A stretch of DNA of 64,000 nucleotides, taken from positions 1 through 64,000 of the forward strand of contig JAQWPT010000022.1 in assembly GCA_029245245.1 (NCBI GenBank), written 5' to 3'. The notes beneath the pieces are model-generated. The model did not search any database and was not told where the DNA came from. It saw only the letters and a list, made by a program, of their open reading frames with translations. Positions 16,540 through 18,969 of the stretch are shown one piece after another; within the stretch, counting starts at the first letter, position 1, and every line of letters begins with the position of its first letter. The stretch is from Phycisphaerales bacterium (GTDB lineage: Bacteria > Planctomycetota > Phycisphaerae > Phycisphaerales > SM1A02). The translations under genes and the position numbers were made by a program.

Positions 16540-17781
16540 TCAATGGGCTTCCGCTGCCGCCACGGGTGTCCCAGTGAGTTTCCCGAGCCATTCTCGGACC
16601 CTGCCACAGCCCTCGGCGATCTCCTCCTCGGAGGTGGCGAAACTCATCCGGACATGCCGCCGTCCGGGGCCGAGAAAATCGTTTCCAGGTACGACGGCCA
16701 CGCCGGCTTCCTCCAGGATCGCCGAAGCGAAATCAAGAGCCGTTTCCAGGTGCACGCCACCGGGACTGGTGCGACCGAACGTGAAGGAGATGTCCGGGAA
16801 GATGTAGAAGGCCCCGGTGGGACGCGGGCAGCGTACGCCCTCCCACTGCCGGACCAGGCCGTGGATCAGTTCCGCCCGACCGGCGAAGATCCGCCGCATT
16901 CCATCGACCTCCGCCCGCCCATCGCCCAGAGCCGCCACGACGGCCGGCATGGTGAAGGAGGTGATCGACGAGGTCATCTGGGACTGCATGGTGTTCATGG
17001 CCTTGATCACCGCCCCCCCGTCTCCGGGAGCGCAGGCGTACCCGATCCGCCAACCGGTCATCGCAAAGGTCTTGCTGAGCCCGTTGATCGTCACGGTGCG
17101 ATTGCGCATCGATTCAATCGAACCGACCGACAAGGCGGGATCGTCCCCGTAGACGAGCTGCTCGTAGATCTCATCACTGATGACCGTCACCTGTTCGTGG
17201 CGTTCCAATACGGCGACGAGGGCGCGGATCTCGTCGGGCGTGTACATGGTTCCACATGGATTGGATGGGCTGTTCAGGAGCATCGCTCGCGTTCGGGGCG
17301 TAATCGCCGCCTCGAGCTGCTCGGGCGTGATCTTGAAGTCCGCGGCGGCATCGGCGGCGACCTCGACCATCGTTCCCCCCGCCAGTTCGATCATCGGCTT
17401 GTAGGACACCCAGGCCGGGGTGGGCAGGATGACCTCATCACCCGGATCAACCAGGGCCTGCAGGGCAAGGTAGACGGTGAACTTCGCGCCATTGTTGATC
17501 GTGATGTGACCGGCGGTGCAGTCGATCCCGTTCTCCTCACGAAGCTTGTTCGCCACGGCTTCGCGGGCCGCCGGGGTGCCCGGGGTGGGCGCGTAGTGCG
17601 TCTGGCCATCGTGCAGGGCGTCGATGGCGGCGTCACAGATCAGGCTCGGAGTGGTGAAATCGGGCTCACCGGCTCCAAAGCCGATGACGTCCTCGCCCCG
17701 TGCCTTCATCTCGCGAACCTTGGCCGTGATGGCCAGGGTCGAGGAGGGTGGAATACTGCTGGCTCGTTGGGAGATGTTCAT
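16540..17781 (-). CDS. Class I pyridoxal-phosphate aminotransferase (AspC/AAT-I type)
   Basis: The 413-residue protein is a fold-type I aminotransferase of the bacterial aspartate aminotransferase Ib group. It has GFGAGEPDFTTP near residue 34, the SPSNPCGTMY segment around 171-180, ISDEIYEQLVY near 201, and the PLP lysine in GLSKTFAMTGWRIGY (Lys237). The likely reaction is aspartate plus 2-oxoglutarate to oxaloacetate plus glutamate. The start is the ATG at 17781 (MNISQRASSIPPS); the frame runs on upstream inside the divergent prfB gene and is not coding there. The 80-base gap to prfB must carry both promoters. Confidence 0.92.
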   Translation of the reverse strand: MNISQRASSIPPSSTLAITAKVREMKARGEDVIGFGAGEPDFTTPSLICDAAIDALHDGQTHYAPTPGTPAAREAVANKLREENGIDCTAGHITINNGAKFTVYLALQALVDPGDEVILPTPAWVSYKPMIELAGGTMVEVAADAAADFKITPEQLEAAITPRTRAMLLNSPSNPCGTMYTPDEIRALVAVLERHEQVTVISDEIYEQLVYGDDPALSVGSIESMRNRTVTINGLSKTFAMTGWRIGYACAPGDGGAVIKAMNTMQSQMTSSITSFTMPAVVAALGDGRAEVDGMRRIFAGRAELIHGLVRQWEGVRCPRPTGAFYIFPDISFTFGRTSPGGVHLETALDFASAILEEAGVAVVPGNDFLGPGRRHVRMSFATSEEEIAEGCGRVREWLGKLTGTPVAAAEAH

Positions 17782-17842
17782 GGCCGGAAGTGTACTTGCA
17801 AGAATGGGGCCTGGGCTGGCAGATGAACGGAATCCCACTCGA

Positions 17843-17848
17843 TACAAT
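17843..17848 (+). promoter_or_regulatory. Candidate -10 element of prfB
   Basis: TACAAT within CGATACAATCC lies 13 bases before the prfB ATG. No clear -35 hexamer is seen at 16-18 bases. If used, the transcript would have almost no leader, which fits the lack of a ribosome-binding site before the ATG. Confidence 0.35.
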
Positions 17849-17861
17849 CCGTCCACGCACC

Positions 17862-18969
17862 ATGCACTACGAAGCACATCAACCGGTGATCGACGACCTT
17901 GAGGCGCGGATCTTGACCATCCGCGACTCTCTTTAACTACGATGACAAGATCGCCAAGCGGGACGCCCTTCAGGAAGAGATGAACGAGATCTCCTTCTGG
18001 GAACGCCCGGAGGCGGCCCAGAAGACCATCGCCCAGTTCAAACTCCTCAAGGCCCAGACCGACGGGCTCGGTCAGGTGATTGAATCGTTCGAGGATGCCC
18101 AGGTCGGATACGAACTGGCCCGCGACGAGGGGGACAAGGAACTGCTTACCGAGGTCGATGAACAACTCTTCGGCATCGTGGGCAAGATGGAGAAGGTCGA
18201 ACTCCAGTCGCTGCTCAACGGCAAGCACGATCACCGTGACTGCTACGTGTCGATCCAGTCCGGTGACGGCGGAACCGAAGCGGATGACTGGGCCGCAATG
18301 CTCGACCGGATGTACCGCGCGTTCTGGGATGCCAGTGGCTGGAAATACGACCAGATCAGCCAGGTGCATGGAACCGAGGTCGGCATCAGCGGTGTGACCT
18401 ACCACCTCAAGGCCCCCATGGCCTTCGGCAACATGAACTGTGAACGTGGGACCCATCGCCTTGCCCGCGTCAGTCCCTTCAACTCGCAGGGCAAGCGTCA
18501 GACCAGTTTTGCGACCGTGGATGTCATTCCCGAGTTCGAGGAGTCCAATCTCGAGATCGACGAAAACGAACTTGAGATCACGACCTTTGCTCGCTCATCG
18601 GGCCCCGGTGGCCAGAACGTCAACAAGGTCGCCTCCGCGGTGCGTATCGTGCACAAGCCCACGGGCATCATGGTGGTGTCCTCGACCTACCGTGAACAGC
18701 CGCAGAACCGCCGTCAGGCCATGACCGTCCTGCATGCGAAACTGGAGCAGATCGAGGAAGAAAGGCGGCAGGCCGAACTTGATGCCGCCACCGGGGGCAA
18801 GGTGGACCGGGGCTGGGGCACCCAGATCCGCAGTTACGTGATCTACGACAATCGCGTCAAGGACCATCGCACCGGGCACGAGGTGGGAAACCCCCAGACC
18901 GTGCTCGACGGCAATCTCAACGACTTCATCGATGCCGAGTTGAGAAGACGCCGTTCTGAACGCGATTGA
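17862..18969 (+). CDS. prfB: Peptide chain release factor 2 (programmed +1 frameshift)
   Basis: RF2 releases peptides at UGA and UAA. A 24-codon first frame (MHYEAHQPVIDD to IRDSL) ends at TAA (17934-17936). The rest continues in the +1 frame from 17935 (NYDDKIAKRDALQ), giving 368 residues in all. The break falls at the known prfB autoregulatory site: CTT then a stop then C. The slippery codon is present. The stop is UAA rather than the usual UGA, and no AGGGGG-like sequence precedes it. Downstream, RVSPFNSQGKRQTS holds the stop-codon-reading SPF, and SSGPGGQNVNK holds the catalytic GGQ. Without the shift, the first internal ATG would be at 17980. Confidence 0.93.

Follow-up and report, generated by a model that had tools for sequence, protein, structure and literature searches.

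A Conserved mRNA Hairpin Probably Takes the Place of the Internal Shine–Dalgarno Sequence at the prfB Frameshift Site of Phycisphaerae

The window analyzed here comprises 64,000 nucleotides of a Phycisphaerales genome (GenBank assembly GCA_029245245.1, contig JAQWPT010000022.1, positions 1 to 64,000) and contains prfB, the gene for release factor 2 (RF2), on the plus strand. The first open reading frame (ORF1, 17862–17936) begins with ATG at 17862, spans 24 codons and ends with TAA at 17934–17936; its product reads MHYEAHQPVIDDLEARILTIRDSL. The ATG start and the length of 24 codons are kept in nearly all relatives. The main reading frame lies in +1 relative to ORF1 and extends from AAC at 17935 to the TGA at 18967–18969 (17935–18969). 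The shifted product is a typical RF2: it has the SPF and GGQ motifs and scores 381.9 bits with TIGR00020 (cut-off 370). The 2.69 Mb genome carries one copy of prfB and encodes an RF1 with a PAT motif elsewhere. An aminotransferase-like gene with a start near 17781 on the minus strand diverges from prfB, with about 80 bp between the two start codons (17779–17862). We found no Shine–Dalgarno (SD) sequence before the prfB start codon in this leader.

The two frames meet at CTT TAA C, codons 24 and 25 of prfB. The slippery sequence CTTT occupies 17931–17934 (CTT at 17931–17933), and the stop is followed by a C at 17937, which provides a weak termination context. The locus thus combines an early stop in ORF1, RF2 in the +1 frame, CUUU, a C after the stop, and a stop codon that RF2 can read, for which the family accepts UGA or UAA. 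By these sequence features (gene, site, frame and stop) it belongs to the prfB programmed frameshift family.

For comparison, we parsed related loci, of which 80 came from GTDB genomes and 30 were retrieved by searching whole genomes. Three sets of frameshift genes were used: 88 close frameshifted relatives with distinct sequences, 171 prfB genes with the frameshift that a protein search identified in the class Phycisphaerae (83 of them distant relatives), and 46 frameshift sites from Planctomycetota outside this class. Another 60 loci obtained via covariance model R1 were excluded from the unbiased counts. CTT TRA C occurs at the same codon in 88/88 close relatives, with CTT and the following C invariant, and the stop is TGA in 65 and TAA in 23. 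This survey, which the original prediction had proposed, together with the +1 position of RF2 bears out its central claim of a programmed RF2 frameshift at a UAA stop. In-frame prfB genes that lack the site are found in two relatives (L109, L111) and in more distant ones (L115–L121, L133). Relatives with UGA or with in-frame prfB had been named beforehand as grounds for rejecting the idea. Both occur and the finding stands: UGA is the commoner state among close frameshifted relatives, and all three members sampled from the window's genus carry TAA. One record (L079) is titled Vicinamibacteraceae (Acidobacteriota), and its RF2 groups inside Phycisphaerales; this is probably a mislabelled genome bin.

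The interrupted frame could in principle reflect an assembly indel, or RF2 could be made without frameshifting from the ATG at 17980, which does lie in the +1 frame. However, initiation at this codon would remove the conserved N-terminus, and the RF2 frame offers no earlier ATG, GTG or TTG downstream of the stop TGA at 17914–17916, so that full-length RF2 requires the shift. An indel is likewise difficult to reconcile with the retention of CTTTRAC in all 88 close frameshifted relatives. We consider this explanation extremely unlikely.

With the frameshift in place, we turned to its stimulator. An internal SD sequence about 3 nt upstream of CUU is a typical, if not strictly defining, feature of prfB sites. 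At the site in the window this element is absent by anti-SD duplex energy: the 16 bases upstream of CTT give +0.4 kcal/mol, compared to −10.6 kcal/mol for prfB from E. coli MG1655, in agreement with the original prediction. At the 46 sites outside the class, which contain purine tracts (for example AAGGACTCT or AGGGGGTCC), the median duplex energy is −5.1 kcal/mol. A first 16S-tail pattern matched a protein gene rather than rRNA in the window genome, and a longer pattern found no match there; we therefore turned to six relatives, all of which have an intact anti-SD at the 16S tail.

The bases in front of the shift site had been given as CCGCGACTCT and read as a missing stimulator. The letters are correct, but they belong to a hairpin, as its 3′ arm, and to the conserved spacer that follows, and this structured element occupies the place where an SD would act. 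The inverted repeat CGCGGAT CTTGACC ATCCGCG, followed by ACTCT CTT TAA C, forms a perfect 7-bp stem (5′ arm 17905–17911, 3′ arm 17919–17925) with a 7-nt loop (17912–17918). The loop is variable in sequence and fixed in length wherever the canonical stem is present. The predicted energy of the hairpin is −10.4 kcal/mol, and folding the longer leader to minimum energy yields it as well. Its base is separated from CTT by 5 bases (ACTCT, 17926–17930, including the E-site codon TCT at 17928–17930), which places a stable hairpin next to the E site, as expected of upstream hairpins that stimulate +1 shifting. The minimum free energy of the whole region gave a z-score of −0.10, which is not informative, since flanking sequence dilutes the signal of the hairpin, and Rfam covariance models had no match at E ≤ 1 in 17500–18500. 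We also considered an extension of the stem by GAG (17901–17903) pairing with CTC (17927–17929) across a G–A mismatch. This extension fits the 88 close relatives and was rejected, as it is not conserved class-wide.

The hairpin is a property of the class. All seven pairs occur at the same offset in 141 of the 171 class genes, and at least six of the seven in 156 of 171; elsewhere in the phylum the latter count is 1 of 46. Among the 83 distant class relatives, 68 have at least six pairs. Outside the class, L251 (genome G508, family f85), from another part of the phylum, forms a perfect stem of 7 bp, CCCGGAT/ATCCGGG, at an unchanged offset, which may reflect kinship with the class or an independent gain. 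In several families, amounting to 18 of the 171 class loci (for example L170, L171, L296 and L301), TGG replaces TCT as the E-site codon, giving ACTGG CTT.

This breadth also bears on the idea that GAGG on the 5′ side of the stem (17901–17904) pairs with 16S rRNA, the hairpin serving only to bring it near the shift site. Among close relatives the idea appears attractive, since GAG is present in 87 of 88. In other families, however, CAG, CGG, AAG, GCG, TCG, ACG, AGC or CAC stands in its place while the hairpin is intact. We regard such a bridged SD as improbable.

Selection on the stem can be read from its two variable pairs. The pair −29/−11 occurs as CG, GC, GU, AU, UA and UG, that is, as all six standard types, and the pair −26/−14 as GC, AU, GU and CG. 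Both are at third codon positions, so most of these changes are silent in the protein. In an unfiltered set of 133 distinct sequences we counted 83 doubly changed cells, compared to 36 ± 7 after shuffling (maximum 49), and 92.5% were paired versus 84% in shuffled sets. A second alignment of 51 diverse sequences, for which only sequences with at least five pairs were kept, contained 34 doubly changed cells versus 13.4 ± 2.2 and had a covariation score of 0.291 versus 0.109, with 0 of 500 shuffles as high. In this alignment, structures slid along the sequence were paired at 16–47%, compared to 96% for the real stem. These shuffles ignore the relatedness of the sequences.

Synonymous constraint is concentrated in the same codons. 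Codons 14–16, 18 and 20–24, which cover the stem and the shift site, hold ranks 1–7, 9 and 13 among 205 conserved codons of prfB, with codons 15 and 16 of the 5′ arm at ranks 4 and 2. Codons 17 and 19, whose third bases are in the loop, rank an ordinary 138 and 90. The most constrained codon of the gene is codon 23, the TCT of the spacer, with 82 TCT and 6 TCC in the 88 relatives. The stem is also more stable than synonymous recodings (p < 0.05) in 74 of 88 genes, with a median z of −2.75. For in-frame genes this is true of 3 out of 10, two of which (L109, L111) are close kin of frameshifted genes.

One might ask whether conservation of the protein motif ARI..IRDSL alone could create these pairs as a by-product of the available codons. 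The amino acids do contribute: in-frame genes with similar residues retain 4–5 of the 7 pairs, which leaves an excess of 2–3 pairs. On the other hand, constraint peaks at third codon positions, above that of other conserved codons of prfB. Families f11 and f18 each contain both G–C and C–G states, produced by coordinated synonymous switches from GCG...CGC/CGT to GCC...CGG, and the in-frame gene L118 encodes RIASIRDSL with codons that leave the stem incomplete. An origin in the protein sequence alone thus seems very unlikely.

It is also conceivable that the inverted repeat is a DNA element, such as an operator, which happens to lie in prfB, and that frameshifting proceeds unaided. The position near the 5′ end of the gene, with the next upstream gene transcribed divergently, would suit this function. 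Yet at the fully synonymous pair −29/−11 we find G–U 24 times and A–C never, which indicates that the sense RNA, rather than a DNA palindrome, is under selection (at −26/−14 the ratio of G–U to A–C is 11:4, which is not significant). Moreover, the distance from the repeat to the shift site is constant, and the full stem is lost in in-frame prfB relatives although their proteins are similar. We assign very little probability to a DNA element.

The best explanation for these observations is a functional, autoregulatory +1 frameshift in prfB with an mRNA hairpin as stimulator in place of the internal SD, a reading to which we give a probability of about 0.8. As regards the stimulator, sequence comparison marks this prfB as a new variant of the RF2 frameshift. 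While CUU occupies the P site and the UAA in the A site awaits a release factor, the 7-bp hairpin would form again immediately beyond the E site, with the base of its stem 5 nt upstream of CUU, close to the position of the SD duplex in E. coli. The refolded hairpin may push against or pull the mRNA, help to expel the E-site tRNA, or both. When release factor is scarce, tRNA-Leu would slip from CUU to UUU and RF2 would be made in the +1 frame. When RF2 is plentiful (or possibly RF1, the stop being UAA), the 24-residue peptide would be released instead. Two precedents guide this proposal. On 70S ribosomes, a designed upstream hairpin stimulated the +1 shift at CUUUGA about 60% as strongly as the SD, an effect that was seen only without RF2 and was proportional to stem stability (PMC6321510). 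The 5′ stem-loop of T4 gene 60 has been proposed to pull the mRNA while zipping up (PMC5009743). By analogy, we infer that refolding destabilizes the E site or strains the mRNA and thereby favors slippage.

The 3′ arm of the stem differs between families in a manner that relates to the SD. Arms ending in CGCG or CGUG, as in the window, in family f9 and in part of f11 and f18, leave no SD. Arms ending in CGGGA provide a weak SD from the same bases (median −4.0 kcal/mol). Much of the class keeps this weak GGGA (−4 kcal/mol), so in these members the hairpin and the SD may work jointly. Three class members (L128, L129, L131) have no hairpin and contain AAGGA upstream of CTT, which appears to be a reversal or an alternative stimulator. 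Family f16 (L135, L137, L138, L313) has other hairpins, for example GAGCGT-CTGACG-ACGCTC, placed several bases further upstream and followed by an SD-like GGGA. The sequences of these hairpin-less lineages and of the shifted f16 hairpins suggest that stimulators can be exchanged.

The original prediction also emphasized the stop codon. UAA at prfB as such is less of a novelty than had been thought: in a survey of 12,753 genomes, TAA was reported at 1.4% and TGA at 98.6% of the prfB frameshift sites (8,164 genomes) (PMC12421855). The UAA sites of that survey are CTT TAA, the same as in the window. However, the survey describes TAA as not broadly fixed in clades and the SD as almost universal, and its main text mentions neither Planctomycetes nor hairpins (PMC12421855), whereas in our data several clades have fixed TAA and the SD is missing. 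Beyond the window's genus, TAA is fixed in other clades too, one of seven rows. The maximum-likelihood RF2 tree requires seven changes between TGA and TAA, with at least four forced by strongly supported branches. Of 103 genes with a 3′ arm ending in CGCG or CGUG, 26 have TAA, against 1 of the 68 others (Fisher 8e-6, kinship ignored), and all 46 sites elsewhere in the phylum use TGA. What is new about UAA here is its recurrence and fixation in subclades of one lineage.

The expectation that UAA would change the feedback logic is correct only in part. RF2 reads UAA, so autoregulation by RF2 persists; RF1, which also reads this codon, may enter as an added input. The distribution of arms and stops may be summarized by a tentative scenario, to which we give somewhat less than even odds. 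In the class as a whole the SD would have been exchanged for an mRNA hairpin via an intermediate whose 3′ arm (ATCCGGGA) served both as arm and as weak SD. Some lineages would then have lost the SD, and within these UAA would have repeatedly replaced UGA, so that a switch sensing RF2 would have come to sense RF1 and RF2 together. The UAA subclades provide a test of whether RF1 can enter RF2 autoregulation. As to stop usage, 38 of the 40 coding-like ORFs in the window (1–64000, rough calls) end with TGA, one with TAA and one with TAG. Loss of the prfB motif has been reported to accompany high usage of RF2-specific stops (PMC12421855); the window genome has kept the motif despite this count.

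The main point of interest is the clade-wide hairpin, more than UAA. Our literature search returned no report of a natural prfB hairpin, nothing on prfB in Phycisphaerae, and nothing on RF2 together with planctomycetes and SD; with the poor coverage of subscription journals, this novelty is provisional. The canonical prfB of the E. coli type (AGGGGG UAU CUU UGA C) shares with the site described here the gene, the position near codon 25, the CUUU slip, the C after the stop and RF2 in the +1 frame. It differs in that the Phycisphaerae site has an upstream hairpin instead of the SD and, in several subclades, UAA for UGA. The near-universal SD has been taken as one molecular mechanism of RF2 regulation in nearly all bacteria (PMC12421855), and a natural, clade-wide replacement by a hairpin would contradict this generality. 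Natural stem-loops 5′ of a recoding site are known from T4 gene 60 and barley yellow dwarf virus (PMC5009743). In contrast to bacterial RF2, these other genes represent bypassing and viral frameshifting, respectively. The closest parallel is the engineered SD-mimic hairpin, which likewise sits beside the E site and promotes a +1 shift at a CUUU stop on 70S ribosomes (PMC6321510). That hairpin was designed with 12 bp; the Phycisphaerae hairpin is natural, has 7 bp and is conserved by selection. It may be seen as the natural counterpart of the synthetic result, and it offers many independent variants for asking how a duplex next to the E site, formed by any strands, drives +1 slippage.
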